NCBI GenBank assembly: GCA_021804095.1
Contig: JAJZKQ010000004.1
Location: 1 to 39,057 of the forward strand
Direction: 5' to 3'
DNA: 39,057 nt
From: Microcaldota archaeon
GTDB lineage: Archaea > Micrarchaeota > Micrarchaeia > Micrarchaeales > CABMGC01
In this document: in pieces, positions 7,891-38,753 of the stretch
How the letters are laid out: each line of letters opens with the position of its first letter
How positions within the stretch are numbered: the stretch's first letter is position 1
Notes under the pieces: model-generated
What the model saw: only the letters and a program-made list of their open reading frames with translations
Database searches by the model: none
What the model was told of the DNA's origin: nothing
Program-made: the position numbers and the translations under genes

Positions 7891-10710
7891 ATGAAAGCCG
7901 TAGTATTCACGATAGATGCCATATTCGCAATGATAATTGCAGGAGTGGCAATTACTATGCTTATATATTTTTCATATACCCCTCAAACACCTTTCCTAGC
8001 TTCGTATTCCGATACGCACTCAATACTTAATATTCTATCTTCAACGACAGTGGCTCAAATAGCAGTTACTAATAACAATACTGCAAGCCAGATGGTTAAT
8101 CAATATAATTCAAAAAGCAATTCTTGGCAAGAATACGCAGACAATTCAGAAAGAAGCAGTTACTCCGGATCGGGTCCCCAATCACAATCGATATCCTTCA
8201 TATACAATCTGCCTTCACAGCAAAACGCGCAGCCTGTAGCTGGTCATGGAAACATTTATCTCGCTTCCGGAAACTACCTGATAGCACTAAATGCAAGCTC
8301 AGGGGTAACATCATGGAAAACGGAAATGCCTACCCAAGCGGAGAGTCTAGCGCTTTACAACAACATGCTAATATACTGGAACGCCTCTTCATGGATAGTT
8401 GCACGATCCGCAGTAACAGGAACAACGCTATGGCAAACGCATTCAGATTCCAACTTCATATCCCAAATACTTATCAATGGGAAGTATGGGGTTGTCGGAA
8501 CATCTTCAAACTCTATAAATTTCTACAACCTGGATAACGGCAGCCTTGCGAATCCATACGCCGCTTCAGAAAGCCAGAACTCAATATCCCTGGCAGTTAT
8601 CTACGGCTCAATAGCATCAAGGACTTCATACAACGGAATCCAGATCTCAGGGATTTCAGTAGAGGGGAAGTCAGCAGGATTGCCAATACTTATAGAGCCA
8701 TCGCCTATCCATCTTCCTGCGACTACAAACATCACTGTCTCACAAGGCTTAATAGCATTCGGCAGCAATAATCAAGAGTGCGCAACATACTCGAATACCA
8801 TGGAAGCATTCTGTTTTTCTACGGGACTCGGCAGCGTCTCTTCAGTATCCTCATCAGGAAGCATGTTCATATACCAGACGTCAAACTCAATAATAGGCGT
8901 ATCAACTTCAGGTTCACTTATATGGCAGGTTCCTTTTGATCTAAAGTCTTCTCCGAATTTAGCCCCAGTTGTCTCTTCAGGTGTTGTCTATTCGGGATGG
9001 TCTAATGGTGAGATAATAGCACAGCGAATATCTACAGGAAGTCCAATATGGATGACACAATCCATATATGGCCCTATAACCGAGATGATACTTGCTTATG
9101 GAAGGCTCTATGCAATTTCTGGGGAAAAGCTTATAGCATATGGAAGCTGCCAGGGAGACAGCCAATCCTCGATACTTCTCAACGCAGCGAATCTATATGC
9201 AAATGGGGATGGCTCATGTGCGGCATATCTCTTAAACAGCGTATACCAGCTATCAAACTATACCTTAACCTTAAACAATACCCTGCAGGGAGCTGAACGG
9301 ATTCCTTACTTTAACGGCACAAACAGCTACATGATAGGTAACATAACCTCCCTTCCTACGGAGCCCCAGCTTACCATAACTGCATGGGTAGATCCATCCG
9401 GATACCAGCCATCAGGTTGCGGTTCAGAGTGCGGAATAGTCGCATTTGGAAACAGGGAATGTCCTGGCCTCGGAAGAATGTTAGGCCTAAATGACCCAAA
9501 TCCAAGCCCTACTGCAAGCAATGACATGATGTATGTAAGCATGAGTGCATGGTGCCAGAATTATGCACCTGAACCAGGACCGACAGTCAATGACAACCAA
9601 TGGAATTTCATAGCAATGGTAATGAATGGAGCTTCTATCACCCTGTATGCAAACAGCAACAGCATATCCGGAAATATTATAACAATGCCAGGAAGCATCA
9701 ATTCTGAAAACCTCTCCATAGGAATGGAGGGATACCCCGGATCCTTATTTCCCTCAAACACATTCAACGGAAGCATAGCGAATGTGCAGATATACAATAC
9801 ACCATTCCAGCCAAACCAAATCTCCGAATTATATGAGGAAGGGCTTAACGGAGGACCCGTATCAGGCCTTGGGATTGTATCATGGTATCCTCTTGATGGA
9901 AATACAAACGATTACGGGCCTTACAATAACACTCTATATCCTGTGAATATAATATACCAAGATTCTGGTTATAGGCCTTCAAGCTATCTCAATTCTTTCT
10001 CAACTTCCAAATCATCAGTGGTCGTTCCGGTTTCTTCGTATGTCGCAGATTTCAACGGCACAACCAGTTATATCTCCACAAATGCCTTGGGCCTGCCTCT
10101 GGGCAGCTCTGGAAGATCTGTTTTCGCATGGGTATATTTCAGAGGTCCGAGCGGATCATGCACTACAACATCACCAAAATACTCCATATATGGATTTGGA
10201 ACTCCAGCAACAACCAACCAGTTCTCAGGGCTTTTGCTATGTGGCAGCCAGCTTTATTTTGCAGGATGGAACAATGATGCAAAAAGCACTTTTTCGTTAA
10301 CTCCAGACACATGGAATTTTGTAGGATATGCTTATACAAAAGGCTCATCATCTGTAACTCTATATCTGAACGGATCTTTCCAGATACTTCCTCTTTCCTC
10401 CTCTCTCAATACTCAGCCTTATGTATCTGACATCGGCGGCATAATCAGTCCAGGATTCCAGGGATATTATTTCAACGGAAGCATAGCGAATGTCCAGGTA
10501 TACAATCTTACCGTGTCTTCCCCATCTGCAGCTGATCTCTATTCCGAGGGTGTCTCCGGACTTCCTCTAAACGGATACAACCTAGTGGGATGGTGGCCTC
10601 TCAATGGACATTCGACAGGATATGCCATCGCGCCCCAAGCTGTTTCAAACGATATTAATTATTCTTATGTTCCAAATCTATACAATGTGGGAATAGTATC
10701 ATGGAGATAA
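7891..10710 (+). CDS. Giant exported protein: N-terminal anchor, PQQ-like beta-propeller, two LamG domains
   Basis: The 939-residue protein starts MKAVVFTIDAIFAMIIAG, a pilin-like hydrophobic helix (about 5-27) that anchors it. Residues about 95-430 contain short repeats of the type 'G..YLI.ALNASSG...W', typical of PQQ-like beta-propellers. Two concanavalin/LamG-like jelly-roll domains follow (about 475-650 and 690-890), each opening with F-NGT-x-SY and closing with FNGSIANVQxYN plus a linker ending in W-x-PL. Many N-glycosylation sequons are present. The family is used for glycan or protein binding at cell surfaces. No C-terminal anchor is visible. It overlaps the next gene by 10 bases, so both are one operon. 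AGGT lies just before the ATG, with TTTATAGAT further upstream. Confidence 0.85.
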   Translation: MKAVVFTIDAIFAMIIAGVAITMLIYFSYTPQTPFLASYSDTHSILNILSSTTVAQIAVTNNNTASQMVNQYNSKSNSWQEYADNSERSSYSGSGPQSQSISFIYNLPSQQNAQPVAGHGNIYLASGNYLIALNASSGVTSWKTEMPTQAESLALYNNMLIYWNASSWIVARSAVTGTTLWQTHSDSNFISQILINGKYGVVGTSSNSINFYNLDNGSLANPYAASESQNSISLAVIYGSIASRTSYNGIQISGISVEGKSAGLPILIEPSPIHLPATTNITVSQGLIAFGSNNQECATYSNTMEAFCFSTGLGSVSSVSSSGSMFIYQTSNSIIGVSTSGSLIWQVPFDLKSSPNLAPVVSSGVVYSGWSNGEIIAQRISTGSPIWMTQSIYGPITEMILAYGRLYAISGEKLIAYGSCQGDSQSSILLNAANLYANGDGSCAAYLLNSVYQLSNYTLTLNNTLQGAERIPYFNGTNSYMIGNITSLPTEPQLTITAWVDPSGYQPSGCGSECGIVAFGNRECPGLGRMLGLNDPNPSPTASNDMMYVSMSAWCQNYAPEPGPTVNDNQWNFIAMVMNGASITLYANSNSISGNIITMPGSINSENLSIGMEGYPGSLFPSNTFNGSIANVQIYNTPFQPNQISELYEEGLNGGPVSGLGIVSWYPLDGNTNDYGPYNNTLYPVNIIYQDSGYRPSSYLNSFSTSKSSVVVPVSSYVADFNGTTSYISTNALGLPLGSSGRSVFAWVYFRGPSGSCTTTSPKYSIYGFGTPATTNQFSGLLLCGSQLYFAGWNNDAKSTFSLTPDTWNFVGYAYTKGSSSVTLYLNGSFQILPLSSSLNTQPYVSDIGGIISPGFQGYYFNGSIANVQVYNLTVSSPSAADLYSEGVSGLPLNGYNLVGWWPLNGHSTGYAIAPQAVSNDINYSYVPNLYNVGIVSWR

Positions 10711-13700
10711 AAAATTTTCTCAAGACAAAGAAGGCACAGATGATGTCAACCGCTGTGCTCCTGATGTTCATGCTTATGCTTGCAGAGCTCTTCGCATTCC
10801 TGATAATGAGTTCAAACTACAGCCAACTTTCCACTTCAAGGATTATATCTACGGGATCCGAGTCAATAGGCTCCTCATTAGCATCAAGCTCAGGCCAGTT
10901 TGCAAAATCAAGCCTCAAAGCCGCAATACTAACCCTGTCCGAATATGAATATAATCCCTCTTTGAGAAAGGGAAATTTCATAACTAACTTCTCATATGAT
11001 GTATCCAATCTAATGATATCGGGGACGATCCCAAATGCCACCTCTTATGCGCAGAACTCAATATCACAAGATATGGAAGGGCTAACCCTCTCTTCATATA
11101 ACCAGAGCGTATTTAAGACATTTGATCTGGGAGAGAGTGTCAAATTAAATGAGAGCAGGCCACACATCTACCAGTCAAGCCCATATTCAATATCTGTAAG
11201 TTATATAGAAAATGTAAAACTAAATACCTCAACAGGCGAATATTCCTTCGGGATTCCCGTAAATGCAACTCTAAACCTCACAGGCCTGCCTGATCCTTAC
11301 TATGCAGAGTCAGGCATCTGGAAGGATGTTAAATTTGGGAACATATTCAATCAGGTTCAAAGGATAGGCGGCATTCAGGCAGACCTTGCAAACCAATACT
11401 CCTTCTCATATGGCACAGTATACTATCTGGGTTCTGGATCTTCATGCCCTGCAAACATGAATCCTCTTCTCGCAAATTCAACTATACTTGTAACTGAGAA
11501 TGCAATGCCCATAATCACTTCAAGCTGTGAAAACAATTTCGGAGGCCTTATAACCGAGTCAAACACCATACCAACAAATTCCAAAATAATGGTACCTTAC
11601 CTGGGTTATACTCCTGGCATACTTCTCTCAAAACTCTTCCAAACCGGGCAGGGAGTGCTTATTTATGGGCCTAGCTACTCCGCATATAACATACAGAATC
11701 TCCAAAAATCAGTTGCAGGCGGATATTATTTTGCATCTCCTGCTACAGCCTCATATATCGACAGGGCAAATGGAAATCCCGGAACAAGCTCCACGCAAGG
11801 CATATTCACATTCTCAGGATATAACAGGCAGTCAGTTCTATTCAATGGAGTTTCAAGTTATTTAATTGCAGGAAATCCGGCCTCTAACTCGCTTCTAAGC
11901 CCCTTTGCAAATAATCAGATAACACTTTCTGCTTGGGTATTCCCAGAAGAAGGCCCCTACCAGCAACAGACAGTACTCGATTTTGGCACTACAGGCAACT
12001 CATACTGCCATGCAGCAAGGCTGGTAGTTCTAGACGGAAATCAATGGTATGGCACAGTCCAAAACCTCAACAACGGCCAATCATCCTTTACGGCAAGCGG
12101 GCTAATTCCATTCTCATGGAATTATATAACAATGACATTCTCCGATTCCGGAAGCCTAAATCTGTATCTAAACGGCCAGCTTGAAGGGAGTGCACCGGCA
12201 ACTGTCCCACTCAATAATCCAAACCAGGTAAACAATCTGGTGATCGGTTCAAATCTAGGCACAGCCACATCAGGCACGTCAATATGCGGAGGAAGCCCAA
12301 AACCATTCAACGGAAGCATAGCGAATGTGCAGGTATACAACTCTACGCTTACCTCATCACAGATATACTCAATTTACCAGCAGGGTTATTCTGGAAGGCC
12401 GATTTCAGGCAACAGCCTTGTTGCTTGGTATCCTCTAAATGGGAACGCTAACGACTACAGCGGCAACGGCAATAATGCAAATACAGTCAACACCATCTTT
12501 ACAGATGCACCTTCAGGCGTTCCTTCCAGATACGCATCAACATTCAATGGCACTTCATACATAGATTCCAACATCACTTCCTATTTTGGCACAAACAATG
12601 CATTCACCGCAGCAGTCTGGGCGTACATCACTCCAAAAACAACAGGCCCGGTATTCGGAATAACCGGAGCACAATACTTCGGAGTATCATATCCTACCTA
12701 CAACAGCATGCCCCTGCTCTTTCCTGTAGGGCTTACACTATATAACTTTATAACTGGTAATGGGCCTACAAATCCTCCATGCTATGGTGGGTGGTGCCAA
12801 GCAAGTTATACTCTTCCCGCTTCTGGATGGTATTCACTAGCAGTCACATACGTCCCATCCGGTTCAGGCGGAACAGAGACATTATATATAGACGGAAAAG
12901 CGACAAACCAGCTAATTCTGTCCGAGTATAATCCCGCGAACTCGGTAATAGGTCCAACCGACTTTTTCACTACCGATGTACAGACAATATTACCTGGTTA
13001 TTCTCCATATCATAATCTCACCGGAAGCATAGCGAATGTCCAGGCATACAATACCTCGCTCTCTCCAAGCCAGATAATGAAGATATATACTGAAGGTATA
13101 TCTGGAGCGCCAGTCCAAGACAAGAATCTTGTGACGTGGCTTCCGCTTGGTGGGAATGCTAATGACTATAGTGGAAACACACATCCTGGAATACCTACAG
13201 GAGGAGTTCCACAGAAGACCTCTCTTGGCCAGAATGACTACGTCTTCGGACCTAATCATGGCATAGAGTATCCTCTTCCAGGAATAGGCGATTGTGTAAA
13301 TATCTCCTCCTGCTCCAATGCCTCCTCACATAACATATACGCAAGCAGCTTTCCAATACTTCCCATGGGTTCCCTGCAGGCTGCCTCATTCTCAGGAACT
13401 ACAGATTTATACGAGAACATTTCCTCGTACTTATATACTGACAATTCATTTTCAATTTCGATGTGGGCATATATAAAACCTGATACAAACGGCCCCTTGT
13501 TCGGTGTCACTGACTCATATCCTCTTGAAATCGGTCCTGGGAACGGATATAACGGAATTCCATGGGATGATCCAATTCTCAGCACTGCAGATACGAATGT
13601 ATATGCATCGGTATCCGGAGTGGATCAAAACAATCCTATAGTAGCGGATATTGGGCAATCAGGATGGCAGTATATAACTCTCACATACAACTCATTAAAC

Positions 13701-13924
13701 GGCGGACAGACATATCTATACATAAACGGACAGCCTACTACAACAACTCCTGCGACAGGCGAATATACCGGAGCAACACCTCCGTCTTCAGGCTCCAGTG
13801 CCCTCCCCGCATCACTACCTGTCTACTGGACTACAAACATATCAGTCTATTCAGGAGTGCCTCTGCCACAAGGAGTAAATGGCTTACTTCAAGGAGAAAT
13901 ATCCAATGTGCAGTTATACAATAC
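9763..13924 (+). repeat. Five copies of a conserved LamG closing cassette across two genes
   Basis: A stretch of about 35 bases encoding F-NGSIANVQ-x-YN recurs at 9763-9799, 10471-10508, 12306-12342, 13021-13054 and (diverged) 13894-13924. The core CGGAAGCATAGCGAATGT or close variants is identical at DNA level in four copies, although the domains around it have diverged. Each copy marks the end of one LamG domain. This points to internal duplication kept similar by gene conversion or by strong codon constraint. Confidence 0.75.
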
Positions 13925-14159
13925 TTCATTGTCACAGAATCAGATAACCTCAATGTATAAGGGCGGAATTTACAGTGTGCCTATAAGCTACTCAAACCTA
14001 ATTGGCTGGTGGCCCCTTCAAGGGAACGCAAACGATTACAGCGGCAACGGATACACAACAATAACAGACCAGAATGTAACATTTCCATACATCTCGCAGA
14101 ATACCTCTGTCACTGCGAGCATATGGCAGGCGCTAGGTTTTGAAGTCCCCCCTAAATAA
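10701..14159 (+). CDS. Giant exported protein with three LamG domains
   Basis: The 1152-residue protein has a basic start, KKAQMMSTAVLLMFMLMLAELFAFLIM (hydrophobic helix about 14-34), then a region of about 320 residues with no recognised domain. Three LamG-like domains follow (about 380-560, 595-800, 870-1090), each ending with the GSIANVQ-type motif and a linker W-x-PL-x-GNANDYSGN. Cysteines are few and sequons are abundant. The start lies inside the last codons of the preceding gene, which has the same domain type, so the two are probably co-expressed partners of one surface complex. Possible roles are attachment to host or neighbour cells, or S-layer decoration. The C-terminus (ending FEVPPK) has no anchor. 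Confidence 0.83.
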   Translation: MEIKNFLKTKKAQMMSTAVLLMFMLMLAELFAFLIMSSNYSQLSTSRIISTGSESIGSSLASSSGQFAKSSLKAAILTLSEYEYNPSLRKGNFITNFSYDVSNLMISGTIPNATSYAQNSISQDMEGLTLSSYNQSVFKTFDLGESVKLNESRPHIYQSSPYSISVSYIENVKLNTSTGEYSFGIPVNATLNLTGLPDPYYAESGIWKDVKFGNIFNQVQRIGGIQADLANQYSFSYGTVYYLGSGSSCPANMNPLLANSTILVTENAMPIITSSCENNFGGLITESNTIPTNSKIMVPYLGYTPGILLSKLFQTGQGVLIYGPSYSAYNIQNLQKSVAGGYYFASPATASYIDRANGNPGTSSTQGIFTFSGYNRQSVLFNGVSSYLIAGNPASNSLLSPFANNQITLSAWVFPEEGPYQQQTVLDFGTTGNSYCHAARLVVLDGNQWYGTVQNLNNGQSSFTASGLIPFSWNYITMTFSDSGSLNLYLNGQLEGSAPATVPLNNPNQVNNLVIGSNLGTATSGTSICGGSPKPFNGSIANVQVYNSTLTSSQIYSIYQQGYSGRPISGNSLVAWYPLNGNANDYSGNGNNANTVNTIFTDAPSGVPSRYASTFNGTSYIDSNITSYFGTNNAFTAAVWAYITPKTTGPVFGITGAQYFGVSYPTYNSMPLLFPVGLTLYNFITGNGPTNPPCYGGWCQASYTLPASGWYSLAVTYVPSGSGGTETLYIDGKATNQLILSEYNPANSVIGPTDFFTTDVQTILPGYSPYHNLTGSIANVQAYNTSLSPSQIMKIYTEGISGAPVQDKNLVTWLPLGGNANDYSGNTHPGIPTGGVPQKTSLGQNDYVFGPNHGIEYPLPGIGDCVNISSCSNASSHNIYASSFPILPMGSLQAASFSGTTDLYENISSYLYTDNSFSISMWAYIKPDTNGPLFGVTDSYPLEIGPGNGYNGIPWDDPILSTADTNVYASVSGVDQNNPIVADIGQSGWQYITLTYNSLNGGQTYLYINGQPTTTTPATGEYTGATPPSSGSSALPASLPVYWTTNISVYSGVPLPQGVNGLLQGEISNVQLYNTSLSQNQITSMYKGGIYSVPISYSNLIGWWPLQGNANDYSGNGYTTITDQNVTFPYISQNTSVTASIWQALGFEVPPK

Positions 14160-14332
14160 TATGATCCGATCTAATCTAATCTTAAAAGGGGGAATGTCAC
14201 TAAGACCAAATAAAAATCATCCAAGAAGATAAAAGGCAAAACAGGAAAAAATGACCGCGCAGAGATATCCGCGCAGATTCAATTCCCGATAGGTTTTTGT
14301 AAACCAACTACTAAAAATAAAGAGTGCAGAAA

Positions 14333-15214
14333 ATGGATAATCAAAGATTGCCATCCTGGATGACTATAAAACCTTCAAGCTCCTCCAAATACTCAGAGAT
14401 AAAATCCGAGATACTTTCAAGAGGATTGCATACTGTATGTGCAGAAGCACACTGCCCAAACATAACAGAATGCTGGAGTGGCGGCACTGCAACTTTCATG
14501 GTCTTAGGAGACCTCTGCACAAGAGGATGCAGGTTCTGTTCTGTGCAAAAAAGTGCAAAGGGAAGAATTCCAAATCCCAAGGAGCCTGAAAACCTCTCTG
14601 AAGTTGTAAGGAAATGGGGGCTTAAATATGTGGTAATCACCTCCGTATGCAGGGATGACTTAGAAGACCAGGGGTCAGAGCATTTTGCAAGATGCGTAGA
14701 GGAGATAAGGAAGCGATCTCCAGACACAACTATCGAGCTCCTAATACCTGATTTTAGAAATGAAGACTCATGCATAGAACGCATAATCAAATCAAAGCCA
14801 GATGTGATAGGGCATAATCTTGAAACTGTAGAAAGCATAACCCCAAAGATAAGAGATAAGCGCGCAACATACTACCAATCCCTTGAAATTCTCTCAAAAA
14901 TAAAGAAAGCTGAAAAGGGCATATATACAAAATCTGCAATTATGCTCGGATTAGGGGAAAGAGAGGCAGAGATCGAAAGAGCAATGGATGATCTTCGCCA
15001 TGCCGGCGTGGATTTTCTTGCAATGGGGCAGTATCTAAGACCAAGCAACCTTCATGCAGAGGTAAAAGAATTCATAGCCCCTGAGAAGTTTTCAGATCTA
15101 AAGGAAAGGGCAATCAGAAAGGGATTCATGTATGTTGCGTCAGGTCCTTTTGTAAGAAGCTCCTATCGTGCCGACGAAGTGAATAATCTCATAAAGAGAA
15201 CTGTTATCTGCTGA
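14333..15214 (+). CDS. lipA: Lipoyl synthase
   Basis: The 293-residue radical-SAM enzyme inserts two sulfurs into octanoyl groups on carrier proteins to make lipoyl cofactor. Both clusters are intact: auxiliary C36-x4-C41-x5-C47 and radical-SAM C62-x3-C66-x2-C69. The conserved RSSY near the C-terminus, whose serine ligates the auxiliary cluster, is also present. Length matches the family. A GTG nine bases upstream is also in frame; I chose ATG. The gene converges on, and overlaps by 11 bases, the lipoate ligase gene, so a lipoate assembly module is grouped here. Confidence 0.95.
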   Translation: MDNQRLPSWMTIKPSSSSKYSEIKSEILSRGLHTVCAEAHCPNITECWSGGTATFMVLGDLCTRGCRFCSVQKSAKGRIPNPKEPENLSEVVRKWGLKYVVITSVCRDDLEDQGSEHFARCVEEIRKRSPDTTIELLIPDFRNEDSCIERIIKSKPDVIGHNLETVESITPKIRDKRATYYQSLEILSKIKKAEKGIYTKSAIMLGLGEREAEIERAMDDLRHAGVDFLAMGQYLRPSNLHAEVKEFIAPEKFSDLKERAIRKGFMYVASGPFVRSSYRADEVNNLIKRTVIC

Positions 15215-15950
15215 AATTCCATTTTCTTGTACCGTATACACCTATCCTCAATTTTTCTGCGGCTTCTATCTCTTCCCTGCTCCACATTCCAAAATCGTAT
15301 TCTCTCCCTTCTGTAAAACCTTCAAGCAACGCACCATACAGGTCATTAAGTGAGAAATTTCCAAAAGCAGATACCGAAGTAACCCTTTCCTCTACGTTTT
15401 TTATCATCTTGTCTGATATCTTCTCCTTGCTCACATTCAAAAGGGAAAACATGCGTTTTATATCAAGGGAATAGAGTATTGTGCCATGCTGTAGGAGTAC
15501 GCCTTTTCTTCTTGTCTGCGCATTCCCAGATATCTTTTTCCCATTTGCAACTATATCATTGACTGGCATGAATTCTGTCTTTATACCGAGAAGAGCAAGC
15601 CCTGAGATTATGGACCTGCAGATGTCCTTATAGCTCTCCCCGATTCCCGAAGGAAATTCAGCCTCAGGAGCCACAAGGCTATACGTTATCTCTCCACCAT
15701 TATCATGGTAGACAGCACCTCCTCCGGTTATCCTTCTCACATAATCCACCCCGGTTTCCCTGCATCTTTCGACATTGACTTCTTCTTCCATAGACTGGAA
15801 CCTTCCTATTGAGACAGCACTCGGAGACCATCTATAAAACCTTATTGTAGGAGGCGAGAGCTTCTCAGAGACCCTTTCGAGCAATACTTCATCTATGGCC
15901 ATATTGAAATACGCATCATGGGTTTCCAAACCTACAATTCGCCATCTCAT
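15204..15950 (-). CDS. lplA: Lipoate-protein ligase, catalytic subunit
   Basis: The 248-residue protein of the biotin/lipoate transferase fold activates lipoate (or octanoate) with ATP and transfers it to carrier proteins. RRITGGGAVYHD at 72-83 is the lipoate-binding loop, and K139 in NGKKISGNAQ is the conserved catalytic lysine. It lacks the C-terminal accessory domain found in bacterial LplA, and the missing domain is encoded by the gene just upstream (start overlaps its stop by four bases). This is the bipartite arrangement known from Thermoplasma. Confidence 0.92.
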   Translation of the reverse strand: MRWRIVGLETHDAYFNMAIDEVLLERVSEKLSPPTIRFYRWSPSAVSIGRFQSMEEEVNVERCRETGVDYVRRITGGGAVYHDNGGEITYSLVAPEAEFPSGIGESYKDICRSIISGLALLGIKTEFMPVNDIVANGKKISGNAQTRRKGVLLQHGTILYSLDIKRMFSLLNVSKEKISDKMIKNVEERVTSVSAFGNFSLNDLYGALLEGFTEGREYDFGMWSREEIEAAEKLRIGVYGTRKWNFSR

Positions 15951-32864: not shown

Positions 32865-32986
32865 GCTTCATCATCAGCCTTCTCAGTATCCGCATAACTC
32901 CATGCTCTTGCAGAAGGAAGTTTCTGCCACAAGGCTCCTCCAAAAAGTTCTTTAAACAGTTTATGCCTAAGATTAATGGTGTTAGC

Positions 32987-33466
32987 ATGGTAGAAATTGG
33001 AAAAAAAATACCTTCAGTCAAGCTTGTGGATACTGAGCTGAAGGAGGTAGACCTTAGGAAAGCAACGAAAGGAAAAGCGGCGATAATTGCCTTCTTCCCT
33101 GGCGCGTTTACCGGAGTATGCACCACGGAGATGTGCAAGTTCAGGGATAGCATGTCGGAGTTCAATAGCCTCAACGGTGACGTCTATGGCATAAGTGTCG
33201 ACGGCCCATTTCCTAACAAGGAATTCAAGGAGAAAAACCGCCTTAACTTTACTATACTCAGCGACTACAGGCGCAAAGCCTCAAAGAAATTCAACGTAAT
33301 TCTAGAGAACTTTGCAAACATGGAAGGATATACTGCATCAAAACGTGCAGTCTTCGTGACAGACTCAAAAGGCATAATAAGATACAAATGGGTATCAGAC
33401 GACCCAACAGTAGAGCCTAACTACTCCGAGATAAAACAGGCCCTCTCGGATATCTCCAAACAATGA
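32987..33466 (+). CDS. Peroxiredoxin, BCP/PrxQ-like
   Basis: The 159-residue thiol peroxidase reduces H2O2 and organic peroxides. The active-site motif FFPGAFTGVCTTEMC carries peroxidatic Cys45 and a second Cys50 five residues on, the spacing of PrxQ/BCP-type atypical 2-Cys enzymes. ISVDGPFPNKEF is the next family block. An ATG 24 bases upstream would add eight residues; I chose MVEIGKKIPS because it matches family starts and TTTAAACAG lies about 30 bases before it. Confidence 0.9.
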   Translation: MVEIGKKIPSVKLVDTELKEVDLRKATKGKAAIIAFFPGAFTGVCTTEMCKFRDSMSEFNSLNGDVYGISVDGPFPNKEFKEKNRLNFTILSDYRRKASKKFNVILENFANMEGYTASKRAVFVTDSKGIIRYKWVSDDPTVEPNYSEIKQALSDISKQ

Positions 33467-33692: not shown

Positions 33693-34988
33693 ATGGAAGG
33701 GAAGATAATTGCCGAATGGGACAAGCTCAGAAAGGTTGTAGTTCACAGGCCCGGAATAGAGCTCTTCTTCGGGCTTCTTGATCCGTCAGGATCTCTATAT
33801 GAAAGGGCATTCAGCCAGAACCTCGCATTAAAAGAACATGAACAGCTTGTAAACCTGCTCTCAAATGATTGCGGTGTAAAGGTGGAAATGCTCTATGATG
33901 GCATAGCAAAGCGGGCCAAAGGCGGCAGAAAGAGGAAGATGCTGGAGAGTGCAGCATTCTCATCCATTGACTTCGTAGGCACAGAATCCGAAGTAAAAAA
34001 AGCAAGAAAGGAATTTATACAGAATCTCTCTTCCTATGATGAAGACTATCTCATAAACATTCTGCTTCTCATGCCCAGGCTGATCCTGAAGAAATCCAGA
34101 GGGATAGGTTCCATACATCTAAGCGTGACAGAACGGGATCCCCTCTCTAACCTTTATTTTATGAGAGATCAGCAATTGGTTACCGACAAAGGACTCTTCA
34201 TATCCAGGATGGCAAAACAGCAACGGAGAAATGAAACCAGGATTACCTCAATGTTATGGGATATGATGGGGCTTCCGGTATCATACAAGGCCAAGCCTCC
34301 TGCAACCATAGAAGGAGGCGACTTCTTCCCCATGGGCGATTTTGCTCTAATCGGAATGGGCGACCGGACAAACAAAAACGGCATCCTTCAACTTATGGAA
34401 TATGGAATATCCACACCTGAAATAGCGGTTGTGAGTCAGCCCGCGAATCCGCTGATACCAAGCAGCTATAGGGATCCGATGTTTGACATGCATCTGGACA
34501 CCTATTTCAACGTCGCAGGGAAGGAATTGGCAGTAGGCTCCGAAACACTCCTTAAACTTGCAGAGGTAGAGATATACGAAAAAAAAGAAGGAAGATATGG
34601 GAAAAAGAGGGAAAAGACAAACCTCTCGGATTACCTCAAGTCCAAAGGCGTGGAGGTAATAAATCTATCAGTTCTAGAACAGATGTCCTACGCTTCAAAT
34701 TTTCTCTGCATAAGCGATAGAAAGATACTTGCGGTAGATAGCAGTGCGGTAATAAAAAAGACAGCAGCAAGGATCTCAAAGCTTGCAGACGAAGAGCCGA
34801 AGCATTATGGACCATTAAACCTGCAGATACGCAGAGACTACGCACTACTTTCACAAAGAGGGACCACATTCCCAAACAGGAAAAAACTCTCCGAATATGG
34901 GATAGACGGCATATCCATCGACCTGAGCAATCTTACCGGAGGATATGGCGGTGCACATTGCATGACAGCGGCAATATACCGTAACTAA
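33693..34988 (+). CDS. Arginine-deiminase-like enzyme (guanidino-group modifying)
   Basis: The 431-residue protein has the complete catalytic set of the arginine deiminase/amidinotransferase superfamily: Asp159 in LYFMRDQ, Glu207 in EGGD, His267 and Asp269 in MHLDTYF, and Cys423 in GGAHCMT near the end. Length and motif order fit arginine deiminase (arginine to citrulline plus ammonia), but no carbamate kinase or ornithine carbamoyltransferase lies near, so energy generation by the full pathway is not supported here. It may act on another guanidino compound. It is followed by two hairpins, then GCS2-type ligase genes. Confidence 0.85.
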   Translation: MEGKIIAEWDKLRKVVVHRPGIELFFGLLDPSGSLYERAFSQNLALKEHEQLVNLLSNDCGVKVEMLYDGIAKRAKGGRKRKMLESAAFSSIDFVGTESEVKKARKEFIQNLSSYDEDYLINILLLMPRLILKKSRGIGSIHLSVTERDPLSNLYFMRDQQLVTDKGLFISRMAKQQRRNETRITSMLWDMMGLPVSYKAKPPATIEGGDFFPMGDFALIGMGDRTNKNGILQLMEYGISTPEIAVVSQPANPLIPSSYRDPMFDMHLDTYFNVAGKELAVGSETLLKLAEVEIYEKKEGRYGKKREKTNLSDYLKSKGVEVINLSVLEQMSYASNFLCISDRKILAVDSSAVIKKTAARISKLADEEPKHYGPLNLQIRRDYALLSQRGTTFPNRKKLSEYGIDGISIDLSNLTGGYGGAHCMTAAIYRN

Positions 34989-35052
34989 AAGCGGAATACT
35001 TATAGGCTATATATTTTACAAAGGTTTTTCTTACAGAAGTCATAGCAGAAAG

Positions 35053-35073
35053 CCCACCTCTTTTAAAGGTGGG
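35053..35073 (+). repeat. Perfect 7-bp hairpin downstream of deiminase gene
   Basis: CCCACCT (35053-35059) and AGGTGGG (35067-35073) pair perfectly around a 7-base AT-rich loop. It lies 65 bases after the deiminase stop and could be a terminator or processing hairpin. Confidence 0.4.
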
Positions 35074-35111
35074 TAGAAAGTTGACAGCCAATCATTTATT
35101 TATATCTAAAC

Positions 35112-35129
35112 CTGCAATCATTATTGCAG
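35112..35129 (+). repeat. Perfect 7-bp hairpin upstream of first GCS2-like gene
   Basis: CTGCAAT (35112-35118) and ATTGCAG (35123-35129) pair perfectly around CATT. It lies upstream of the likely promoter (TACATAAACTAAAA near 35177-35190), so it is either an operator-like site or an insertion relic. Confidence 0.35.
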
Positions 35130-35205
35130 CATTTCGAAATATATAGTAGCTCCAGATGCAACTGCCCGCTAATCATACATAAACTAAAAACTCCTGCCGG
35201 TACAA

Positions 35206-36615
35206 ATGGAAAACCTTGAGACCATCTTTCAAAACAGATTTGGAATTGTCAATCCTAATGAGAGGAAGATAGGCCCTGAAATAGAAGGAATATTATTCAG
35301 CCCAAAAACTCCCAACAATATACCAAGCGTCGAAGAGATCTCCGAACTGTTCGAAAATATAGCATCAGGTCTAAATGGAGCGGCGGATCTATACAACGAA
35401 AGGATCCAGATAAACGGAGAAACCACATATGCATACTCTACAAAGGTAAAATTCGAGGTGAATGACTACTTCGTAGAAATAACAACCGGCATCTCAAGAT
35501 GCACTTTCGAGATGACTGTTCCACCGAGCAGAAGCCTCTCTGAAAATGAAAGAAATCTGAAGTACATATTTGAAAAATTGCTGAAAGGCGCAGAAAATTC
35601 ACGGCTGGAAATACTTGGGCTGGGCGCGCATCCCTTTGCAGAACATAGCAACGAAAGCATAATGCCTAAATTGATAAATGTCTACCTAAGCGAGAGGCTC
35701 GACGGAAACGAGCTGAAAAGACTCATCACAAATGCCTCCTCACAGTTCCATGTTGAACTCTCCAGAAATGAGACCGAATCTCTCCCTAACATGCTTATGC
35801 GGTTTATACCGCCAATAGTGGCTTTAACCTGCAATTCTGCAATAATAGAAGGTGAATTTTCAGGATATAAAGAATACAGAAGCTATGCTCTAGAAAGAGA
35901 AAAAGACCATCATATGGAAGAGAGCAGGGCAGGACTCCCTCCAAATTTCTTCAGTGCGGATAATAATTACTTCAGGTATCTCATAAGTCATTCTCCGATA
36001 ATATCAAGGAGAAGAGATATGATAAATGGATTTTATATAACGTTTGATGACAAGGCAAAAACCTTCTCAGACTTTATCAATAAAGGCACTACCGAAGCGC
36101 GAAGAACTGACAGCGGCAATAAAATCACCGTCACTCCAGAACTTGTCGACCTGGTCTTCCTCGAAGGAACCGTATGGCCCGAAGTACGACTAAGATCCAC
36201 ATTCGGCACGGCAGAATTCAGGCCTTGTTCATTCCAGCCTTCAGCAGACGAGATTCTTGCAATCGGAGCTGTCGTAAAAGGTCTTGTAAACAACTACATA
36301 GAAGCCTCGCGCCTTGTGGAAAAATATGACATAAAAACAATAAGGGAAGCACACAGAAGCGCAATGAGATACGGGCCCGATGCCCATATAGGTGGAGAAA
36401 GCCTCCTGGAGCTAAGCAAAAGAATGCTATATGTTGCAGCCAGAGGGCTTGATGGCAATGAGAAACAATTCCTAAGACCAATGGAAAAGAATGCAGAAAG
36501 CGGAAAGAGCCCTGCAGACAGAAGCATAGCATACTTTACAGAACTGCTCAAAAGGCAGCCAAGGAATAGCGATTTTACACAAAACTTTGTTGAAAAGCAC
36601 AGGTTTAAAATCTAG
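35206..36615 (+). CDS. GCS2-family carboxylate-amine ligase, copy A
   Basis: The 469-residue protein shows the glutamate-cysteine ligase type 2 (YbdK/EgtA) fold features: GPEIEG near residue 23 (metal/ATP acid), FEMTVPP, LGLGAHPF, SQFHVEL (metal-binding His region) and TAEFRPCSFQP near residue 345. Members join a carboxylate, usually gamma-carboxyl of glutamate, to an amine with ATP. Substrates here are unknown. Copy B (37371-38753) is a distant paralog with the same motif order. The amidohydrolase starts 30 bases downstream and is probably co-transcribed. Confidence 0.8.
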   Translation: MENLETIFQNRFGIVNPNERKIGPEIEGILFSPKTPNNIPSVEEISELFENIASGLNGAADLYNERIQINGETTYAYSTKVKFEVNDYFVEITTGISRCTFEMTVPPSRSLSENERNLKYIFEKLLKGAENSRLEILGLGAHPFAEHSNESIMPKLINVYLSERLDGNELKRLITNASSQFHVELSRNETESLPNMLMRFIPPIVALTCNSAIIEGEFSGYKEYRSYALEREKDHHMEESRAGLPPNFFSADNNYFRYLISHSPIISRRRDMINGFYITFDDKAKTFSDFINKGTTEARRTDSGNKITVTPELVDLVFLEGTVWPEVRLRSTFGTAEFRPCSFQPSADEILAIGAVVKGLVNNYIEASRLVEKYDIKTIREAHRSAMRYGPDAHIGGESLLELSKRMLYVAARGLDGNEKQFLRPMEKNAESGKSPADRSIAYFTELLKRQPRNSDFTQNFVEKHRFKI

Positions 36616-36645
36616 AAAACAGATAATCGATCAACTAACAACACG

Positions 36646-37374
36646 GTGTATACTCTGATAATAGATGCGCATGCGCACATAGGCATAGACAAAGACGGAA
36701 GTAGCCAGACTATCGATGAACTAAAAGAGAGCATGGCCAAGTATGGCATTGATGCATCGGTGGTATTCCCATTTGACATCAAAGGAGACCTGATAGAAGC
36801 AAGCAGAGAACTCCTAAAATATAAATCAGACTCAATATTCCCATTTCTAAGGTTTGATCCCAATACGTCAAGCCCGGAAGAGATCGGAAGCCTGCTAGGA
36901 AATGATGATTTTCTTGGAGTGAAGCTCCACCCACGCTCACAAAACTTTGATCCTCTAGACAAGAGATTCAGACCATTCTTTCACGAGATAGAATATTCAG
37001 GAAAGCCTCTGCTCATACATACAAGAAAAGAAGCCACTCCATACTCGGATCCAGACAGGGTAGTCTGCCTTGCGGACGACTTTCCAAAAATGAATATAAT
37101 AATAGGACATTTTGCCTTCGCCTCGCAGGTTGCAATAGAAAAAATAAAGACACATGAAAATCTCTTTTTAGAAACATCTGTGGTATCAAGCAATGTAGTA
37201 ATAAGGCTTATCGCACAGAAGATAGGCGCAAGCAAAATACTCTTCGGTTCAGATGTACCTATGTCCGATCAGGAAATAGAAATGCTAAAGATAAAAAAAT
37301 CAGGACTAAGCGAAAAGGAAAAGGAGATGATATTTTCCGGCAATCTTCTCTCTCTCATAAAACCGAATTTTTAG
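36646..37374 (+). CDS. Amidohydrolase-2 family metal hydrolase
   Basis: The 242-residue protein begins at GTG with LIIDAHAHIG, the HxH metal-binding strand of TIM-barrel amidohydrolases. Later blocks are VKLHPR, LLIHTRKE, IIGHFA and LFGSDVPM (final Asp). Such enzymes hydrolyse or decarboxylate small carboxylic acids and amides. It lies between two GCS2-like ligases and overlaps copy B by four bases on the opposite strand, which suggests the hydrolase trims or recycles a product of those ligases. The substrate is not deducible. Confidence 0.83.
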   Translation: MYTLIIDAHAHIGIDKDGSSQTIDELKESMAKYGIDASVVFPFDIKGDLIEASRELLKYKSDSIFPFLRFDPNTSSPEEIGSLLGNDDFLGVKLHPRSQNFDPLDKRFRPFFHEIEYSGKPLLIHTRKEATPYSDPDRVVCLADDFPKMNIIIGHFAFASQVAIEKIKTHENLFLETSVVSSNVVIRLIAQKIGASKILFGSDVPMSDQEIEMLKIKKSGLSEKEKEMIFSGNLLSLIKPNF

Positions 37375-38753
37375 GAACTGTCAAATCTGTGTGCATTTAT
37401 AAAAGCACTCAAGAACTCCTCTCCGCTTAAGTTCATACCTTTTAATTCCAAAAACCTTTTTCTTGACTTAACCGCATGATTCATGCCCTCTTCCAATATA
37501 TTATGCATAGGCTGGAGATAACGGCGATGTTCCTCACTCTCAAGCCCTCGTGCCGCTATCTTAAGCATATTATCTGAGAATTCCTTTATGGAAATATCTC
37601 CTATGCTGGAATCAAGCCCATTGTATATTGCGTCAATCCTTGCTTTCTTTATATCTGAGTCAAAAAATCTCCTAAGATAATCTTCAGCTTCATAACTATT
37701 GTTTCGCAGGCCGAGTACCAACGCATTTATAGCCATCAAATCCTTAACTGAAGGTTGGCATGGTGGAGATCTCATTTCCACAGTTCCATATCTTGTAAGC
37801 CTCGCATCTGTCCAAATGCTTCCCAAGAGTATCATAAAATCTTCGATTCTCGGATTTACTATGGCTTGGTTATCGCTTCCTACTGTTGAAACAACAGTCT
37901 CTTCCCTGCTCATAAAACTTGAAAATGAATCAGGATTATTCTTTCCAAAATGAAGGTAATCATTGTTACGAGCTATCAGTATTGGTTTAAAGCCAACTAT
38001 CCTAACAAACCAATCTTCAATTGAAGCAAACCGGGTAGGAGTTCCTACCCTCTCCTCTTCTATAATCTTATTTCTTGTCATTATACTCCAAGCAGTTCCC
38101 CTAAATTCCTGCCTTTCATCTATACTGCCTTCCAAAATGGTTGAATTTGCGGTTAGTGCTATTATGGCAGGAGAAAACCCTATCATTGTATTAAGCGTAC
38201 TTACAGCACTCTCCCTCGACACATCAACATGAACCTGGGCTGCCGCTGTTACTGTCATGTCTATAAGGTCATCCCCGAAATACTCTAACAGGTAAAGATA
38301 TCTTGATTTAGGCATTACATTATCAAAACCTCTTCTTTGAAATGGCTGTATGCCAAGTCCAAGAGCCTCAATGCCTGTCCTCTCCTCAGCTTCCATGATC
38401 ACCGAAAATCTCCTTTTCAATTTTTCTTCATTAGCGTATAAATCCTTCTCGGGGCCTAGTACAAGTTCCATAATCCCTATAGCCATATCTGTAGTCACTT
38501 CATCTGCAAACCCATCAGCCTTTCTTACTACCGAAGTGCAGTGCTCTGTACTCTTTCTTCCGTTTATTATTAATGGTTCAAATTTAGGCTCCCAACCATT
38601 CTCAATTTTCTGTATGGCAAGAAGCATAGAAGAAACATCTTCAAGCTTAGGCTGCAATCCTGTCTTCTTCATGACAAGCGGCATTTCTACCTCGTATCCC
38701 GTCATTCTTCCAGGCTTCAGTCTAGCCTCATACTGCTTATATATTCTATCCAT
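37371..38753 (-). CDS. GCS2-family carboxylate-amine ligase, copy B
   Basis: The 460-residue paralog of copy A has matching landmarks: GYEVEMP, ELVLGP, LGLGIQPF, AAAQVHVDVSRES, NSTILEG and GTVEMRSPPCQPS. Identity with copy A by eye is clear only around the motifs, so the duplication is old and each copy likely has its own substrate. It is transcribed leftward and converges on the amidohydrolase. Reading it as a classical glutamate-cysteine ligase would need evidence for glutathione-like thiols, not present here. Confidence 0.78.
   Translation of the reverse strand: MDRIYKQYEARLKPGRMTGYEVEMPLVMKKTGLQPKLEDVSSMLLAIQKIENGWEPKFEPLIINGRKSTEHCTSVVRKADGFADEVTTDMAIGIMELVLGPEKDLYANEEKLKRRFSVIMEAEERTGIEALGLGIQPFQRRGFDNVMPKSRYLYLLEYFGDDLIDMTVTAAAQVHVDVSRESAVSTLNTMIGFSPAIIALTANSTILEGSIDERQEFRGTAWSIMTRNKIIEEERVGTPTRFASIEDWFVRIVGFKPILIARNNDYLHFGKNNPDSFSSFMSREETVVSTVGSDNQAIVNPRIEDFMILLGSIWTDARLTRYGTVEMRSPPCQPSVKDLMAINALVLGLRNNSYEAEDYLRRFFDSDIKKARIDAIYNGLDSSIGDISIKEFSDNMLKIAARGLESEEHRRYLQPMHNILEEGMNHAVKSRKRFLELKGMNLSGEEFLSAFINAHRFDSS

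Follow-up and report, generated by a model that had tools for sequence, protein, structure and literature searches.

A conserved GCS2 ligase-amidohydrolase module beside a probably separate arginine-deiminase-family gene in an archaeal genome

Background

Do a deiminase, two GCS2-type carboxylate-amine ligases and an amidohydrolase that lie side by side in an archaeal genome belong to one pathway, or do separate units share a neighbourhood here? The question is raised by contig C32 (39 kb; all 39,057 nucleotides are referred to as the window) of an 811-kb, 41-contig archaeal bin that is 83% complete. Genome size, archaeal-type genes and the reported distribution of arginine deiminase suggest a DPANN archaeon, probably one of the Micrarchaeota; the bin contains no archaeal 16S. 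An initial annotation of the window had read the four genes as a single block that could make or recycle a gamma-glutamyl or citrulline-containing metabolite. We instead favour, with a probability of roughly 0.6, a reading in which the block consists of two side-by-side units and not of a single pathway: the ligases GCS2-A and GCS2-B together with the amidohydrolase (AMH) would form a module that makes and breaks an amide, and the deiminase beside it would belong to a separate arginine dihydrolase system. Setting the deiminase apart from the GCS2 and AMH genes keeps four enzymes from being wrongly assigned to one pathway. In archaea with small genomes, genes for biosynthesis are few, but one family of these archaea retains, duplicates and shuffles this ligase-hydrolase pair, whose intact active sites and good structural models could reveal peptide or thiol chemistry of these archaea.

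Results and discussion

Organization of the locus

The four enzyme genes named in the initial annotation were recovered as reading frames with identical boundaries, and all four Pfam matches exceed their curated cut-offs. The deiminase gene (33693-34988, + strand) encodes a divergent member of the arginine-deiminase family of 431 aa (PF02274, E=1.5e-46). It is followed by an intergenic gap of 217 bp (34989-35205, no strand) and then by GCS2-A (35206-36615, + strand), a GCS2-family carboxylate-amine ligase of 469 aa (PF04107, E=3e-16). AMH, a PF04909 amidohydrolase-2 TIM barrel of 242 aa (36646-37374, + strand; Amidohydro_2, E=1.3e-23), starts 30 bp downstream of GCS2-A on the same strand. The second GCS2-family ligase, GCS2-B (37371-38753, - strand; 460 aa; PF04107, E=1.1e-16), is convergent with AMH, and the stop codons of the two genes overlap by 4 bases. 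Because GCS2-B is on the opposite strand and convergent with AMH, the block comprises at least two transcription units, and probably three. The initial annotation had also noted that neither an arginine-deiminase pathway partner nor a glutathione synthetase adjoins these genes, and this holds: ornithine carbamoyltransferase (OTC), carbamate kinase (CK) and glutathione synthetase are all absent alongside. A peroxiredoxin gene is located upstream of the deiminase (32963-33466).

The gap between the deiminase and GCS2-A contains an IS200/IS605-like hairpin remnant (at about 35035-35085) and an A/T-rich promoter-like stretch (at about 35098-35108), the latter conserved with the sister species G003. 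In G003 the deiminase contig breaks off inside the 5' portion of a TnpB gene of the IS605 type, and the GCS2-A contig opens with an end hairpin and the 3' part of a gene from the family of a TnpB-like protein of another relative, G002. The bases of the window gap match both G003 contig sides. From these matching ends, the simplest order for G003 is deiminase - IS605 element - GCS2-A - AMH - GCS2-B, and most simply the four genes are retained in order only in this closest species. The hairpin insert of the window gap itself (~45-50 bp) is absent from G003 and resembles one that precedes another TnpB gene of G002, a genome in which the order is TnpB - AMH - GCS2-B, with no GCS2-A and with a GCS2-B homologue of 61% identity adjoining AMH. 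In G003, the loss of a single base splits GCS2-B; the contig has ~3x coverage, and this frameshift is either genuine or an assembly error. As the order of deiminase and GCS2-A is retained in the sister species, a looser link between these two genes may exist.

The deiminase and its neighbourhoods

The deiminase scores 159.6 bits against PF02274 (cut-off 22.8). Its catalytic set is complete (Asp159, EGGD207-210 with Glu207, His267-x-Asp269 and Cys423), the substrate-side residues Asn153, Arg178 and Arg225 are kept, and most of these positions are invariant in an alignment of 9 homologues; the roles of the residues are those of their counterparts in ArcA. Although these catalytic residues are the same as in ArcA, the protein reaches only 93.3 bits against the ArcA equivalog TIGR01078, far under the cut-off of 489.1, and we therefore refer to it as a divergent arginine-deiminase-family enzyme from a divergent archaeal branch. 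Its Cys loop, GGYGGAHC, also has a Tyr at a position where ArcA usually has an Arg.

Deiminase matches were found in 12 of 60 related genomes, nine of which, the window's genome included, carry a full-length gene. Leaving aside the window's genome and G003, no GCS2 or AMH gene was found near the deiminase in the seven other genomes with a full-length copy. One relative (G035) has the genes for OTC, CK and the deiminase in that order on one strand, which corresponds to an OTC-CK-ADI operon of the arginine dihydrolase pathway, and in another (G041) CK is about 600 bp from the deiminase. The window's genome has candidates for both partners on other contigs: an OTC (C40) of 339.8 bits, over the cut-off of 280.85, and a CK-like protein (C15) whose 224.6 bits are below the curated cut-off of 358.25. 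Arginine deiminase has been reported in 28.6% of Micrarchaeota genomes and has been described as laterally acquired (PMC8407392).

These residues and neighbourhoods make it fairly probable that the deiminase belongs to the arginine dihydrolase pathway, known already from Micrarchaeota, and that it is a neighbour of the GCS2/AMH module and not a member of it. It would convert arginine to citrulline and ammonia, and citrulline would then be passed to OTC and the putative CK, encoded elsewhere in the genome, in acid and energy metabolism.

Adjacency of GCS2 and AMH genes across the order

When the 164 genomes that make up the order were all searched with an AMH profile, 34 close members were obtained, and we counted a member as linked when a GCS2 gene was located within two genes of it. 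Half of the loci (17 of 34, in 14 genomes) are linked in this sense. GCS2 is upstream on the same strand at 11 of them, at one of which (G021) an ATP-grasp gene is inserted between GCS2 and AMH; five loci are tail-to-tail only and one is divergent. The window and G003 have the same-strand and the tail-to-tail arrangements both around one AMH. Apart from G021, same-strand gaps range from -80 to 58 bp, the value of -80 reflecting start-codon choice, and tail-to-tail gaps range from -4 to 24; over the linked loci most gaps are between -20 and 58 bp. Random placement would give less than 1% per locus, and the corresponding chance of at least 17 linked loci out of 34 is about 3e-26, a value that overstates independence given that the loci are related. 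The linked AMHs occupy several well-separated branches of the AMH tree, and the link label needs about 6 changes on it. Since same-strand and tail-to-tail orders both recur, the link is not merely inherited synteny. GCS2-A, AMH and GCS2-B are a conserved module.

The remaining 17 AMH genes are not accompanied by GCS2, and 11 GCS2-family genes lack an AMH neighbour, which suggests that either enzyme can work alone. No transporter or product gene consistently adjoins the GCS2 and AMH genes. The GCS2 family is patchy: among the 301 genomes searched in the phylum, 25 have it at the threshold used, and G029 carries as many as five copies. The GCS2 tree unites A, B and a third copy from G003 in a supported eight-member clade (100/99), in which A and B branch separately. 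In the papers searched, no description of GCS2 paired with PF04909 in archaea was found.

The claim that the four genes form one pathway can now be divided. It is supported for the GCS2 ligases and AMH, which are associated at 17 loci in 14 genomes and have intact active sites, and it lacks support for the deiminase, which adjoins only 2 of these 17 loci. A single four-enzyme pathway that produces or recycles a gamma-glutamyl compound derived from citrulline or arginine would account for the gene order of G003, as far as this is given by matching contig ends. However, the occurrence of the deiminase away from GCS2 and AMH in seven other genomes, its place inside an operon with OTC and CK in G035, the 217-bp gap with its IS remnants and the opposite strand of GCS2-B all argue against such a pathway. 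We rejected it on account of the separate neighbourhoods of the deiminase in other genomes and consider it very unlikely.

The two GCS2 ligases

Against PF04107 the two window copies score 60.1 and 61.5 bits (cut-off 21). Their strong divergence with a common motif order, pointed out in the initial annotation, is confirmed by an identity of 33% and an equal order of motifs. Both keep the ExE metal motif, the second-strand Glu (E102), LGxGxxP, the His of QxHV (H182) and NS, and both conserve R328 and the ExR at 337-339 of the R...GTxExR segment, so that the metal and ATP residues required in the GCS2 superfamily (ExE, second-strand Glu and ExR) are present in each. A motif table indicates that these catalytic motifs are largely common to glutamate-cysteine ligase (GCL) and YbdK. 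One further motif, MPKxRY, reads MPKGRY in plant GCL, MPKSRY in GCS2-B and MPKLIN, with RY changed, in GCS2-A. We take its Arg, by our own offset, to be Arg220 of Brassica juncea GCL, presumably a substrate-binding residue, and use this as a lead only.

In the profile search the best match, which spans the full length, was plant GCL (6gmo, 2gwc, E 8e-38), followed by YbdK. The AlphaFold model of GCS2-A is confident (pLDDT 91.7) and has plant GCL 2gwc as its top Foldseek match (TM 0.77-0.83); compared to YbdK, TM is about 0.62 (query) and about 0.8 (target). Scores for A and B are below the cut-offs of the plant-type GCL equivalog TIGR01436 (33.9 and 60.7 bits against 463), YbdK TIGR02050 (73.3 and 58 bits against 176.4) and EgtA TIGR03444 (no match for A and 27.6 bits for B against 370.8). 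With plant and alphaproteobacterial GCL (TIGR01436; 2gwc, 6gmo) the window ligases have in common the full-length GCS2 fold, ExE, NS and ExR, and in GCS2-B also MPKxRY; they differ in sequence (18% identity), in the YbdK-like QxHV His and GTxE segment, in having AMH as a partner and, for GCS2-A, in the loss of RY. With E. coli YbdK (TIGR02050; 1r8g) the fold, the His of the HxH strand and the GTxExR elements are common, whereas identity is 15% and the window ligases exceed it in length by about 90 residues. The haloarchaeal GshA, described as an archaeal glutamate-cysteine ligase that makes gamma-glutamylcysteine, is comparable to them by its described function, and the part of its description used here mentions no AMH partner (PMC7278568).

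It is possible, though unlikely, that GCS2-B, and perhaps GCS2-A, is an archaeal GCL with gamma-glutamylcysteine as the low-molecular-weight thiol, as in haloarchaea, and with AMH acting in its turnover. This would fit with plant GCL being the best structural and profile relative, with the MPKxRY motif of GCS2-B, with the peroxiredoxin gene upstream of the deiminase and with the product of haloarchaeal GshA. On the other hand, the scores are far under every curated GCL, YbdK and EgtA cut-off, the distribution over the phylum is patchy, and the divergence of the paralogues together with up to five copies per genome suggests several substrates.

The amidohydrolase

AMH scores 84.6 bits against PF04909 (cut-off 26.4), and its metal ligands (HxH, H125, H155 and D203) are intact and kept in every homologue in which the region is read. 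Its AlphaFold model (pLDDT 93.9) gave Foldseek matches to 2dvt, 3cjp and 3ij6, with amidohydrolase-2 decarboxylases on top in addition to uncharacterised hydrolases. Hydrolysis by AMH is not assured, since the PF04909 fold includes decarboxylases and these are the top structural matches. AMH may be a decarboxylase of the ACMSD or gamma-resorcylate type, or a lactonase, instead of an amidase, with ligase and AMH acting in series and not as forward and reverse steps; the HxH/H/H/D ligand pattern fits ACMSD-type decarboxylases as well. However, AMH is much shorter than these enzymes (242 aa compared to 325-350), and the profile search places it nearest to 3cjp, a dihydroorotase-like amidohydrolase that is uncharacterised; we consider this alternative rather unlikely. 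In most members of the largest GCS2-free branch of the AMH tree, the loop that follows H125 carries an insertion of at most ten residues, which is absent from the GCS2-linked AMHs and suggests a different substrate in that branch.

ATP-grasp partners in relatives

No glutathione-type second-step ATP-grasp synthetase adjoins the window genes, and such neighbours are confined to a subset of the relatives. In three genomes (G021, G070 and G074) GCS2 and AMH are clustered with a YheC/D ATP-grasp ligase (PF14398), which is one small ORF away from the cluster in G079 and adjoins AMH in G099. The AMHs of the YheC/D-associated clusters form one clade (99/99) and their GCS2s another (100/100). G063 has a RimK/GSH-S-like ATP-grasp located after a different GCS2. 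GCS2-type and ATP-grasp ligases have reportedly been seen together in small clusters in a study from 2009 (cited in PMC8976061), as in the clusters of these relatives.

RimK-kind ATP-grasp enzymes can glutamylate proteins, and their presence near GCS2 in relatives, together with PafA and Dop of the common ligase fold among the fold matches, brings up a module that reversibly modifies a protein or polymer in the manner of PafA and Dop, with the amidoligase adding glutamate or another amino acid and AMH removing it. PafA and Dop are distant, however (TM about 0.43), and none of the short ORFs beside the genes recurs as a candidate tag would. We regard such a role as highly improbable.

Proposed function of the module

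Under the favoured reading of an amide-making and amide-breaking module, each GCS2 ligase would use ATP and Mg2+ to phosphorylate a carboxylate, most likely the gamma-carboxylate of glutamate, which is the default carboxylate in the GCS2 fold. The resulting acyl phosphate would be captured by an amine to give an amide, and the diverged pockets of A and B suggest probably different partners. AMH, a metal-dependent TIM barrel, may then hydrolyse or otherwise process the ligase amide or a derivative of it. In the relatives that have one, the YheC/D-type ATP-grasp presumably attaches a second residue, in analogy to glutathione synthetase acting after glutamate-cysteine ligase. The amide is probably gamma-glutamyl. 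Of the two products proposed initially, a gamma-glutamyl metabolite is plausible, and nothing supports one containing citrulline.

More tentatively, the genes may belong to an archaeal pathway not previously described, in which paralogous GCS2s that differ in specificity, in some cases joined by a YheC/D ATP-grasp, build short gamma-glutamyl or similar amides that the dedicated short amidohydrolase-2 dismantles or matures, so that small-genome archaea would have a low-molecular-weight peptide, thiol or protective group that is new.

Two other candidate assignments were rejected: a defence system, as none of the proteins had a PADLOC match, and a ribosomal-peptide (graspetide-like) cluster, as no short ORF recurs upstream of the ligases. 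No relative of AMH was found on viral contigs, and the plasmid relatives of GCS2 were only distant bacterial GCLs of 22-26% identity. The source genome also carries archaeal-type genes, namely FttA, proteasome and NAC.

Neighbours of the ligase genes in related genomes

Genes for the carboxylate-amine ligase family GCS2 also adjoin other enzyme genes in related genomes. One copy (G063, L161:6123-8466) is immediately followed by a RimK/GSH-S-like ATP-grasp gene, the two forming a glutathione-style ligase pair, and another (G096, L164:7609-11441) is convergent with genes for an M20 peptidase and a lyase of the argininosuccinate-lyase superfamily. A presenilin-type signal-peptide peptidase homologue adjoins GCS2 at L059, L060 and L165 (genomes G006, G032 and G090); of these loci, its identity was tested in L059. 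Since the ExE metal motif is missing from the peptidase-adjoining GCS2 copies of G006 and G032, both may be inactive or repurposed. In the sister species G003, a one-base deletion splits GCS2-B (L052:2543-3954) on a low-coverage contig.

Other amidohydrolase neighbourhoods

The window's own genome (G000) carries a second amidohydrolase of the AMH family (C20:31382-32116, corresponding to L107:8371-9120). It has a longer active-site loop, its neighbours encode a replication factor C subunit and a LamG-domain protein, and no GCS2 lies beside it. A separate AMH branch forms a second conserved neighbourhood in five genomes (L055, L125, L127, L128 and L129), where a weakly GNAT-like gene, f9, precedes AMH; in several genomes the next gene after AMH is one whose L129 copy matches class I tRNA synthetases (W/Y type).

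Other genes in the window

The peroxiredoxin (AhpC/TSA) gene at 32963-33466, upstream of the deiminase, keeps its position in G003. Convergent genes for a lipoyl ligase and a lipoyl-synthase-like radical SAM protein (14324-15950) would provide a lipoate pathway in an archaeon whose genome is small. The stretch 7891-14159 encodes two large proteins (939 aa and 1152 aa) that carry LamG/concanavalin-like domains and are likely surface proteins.
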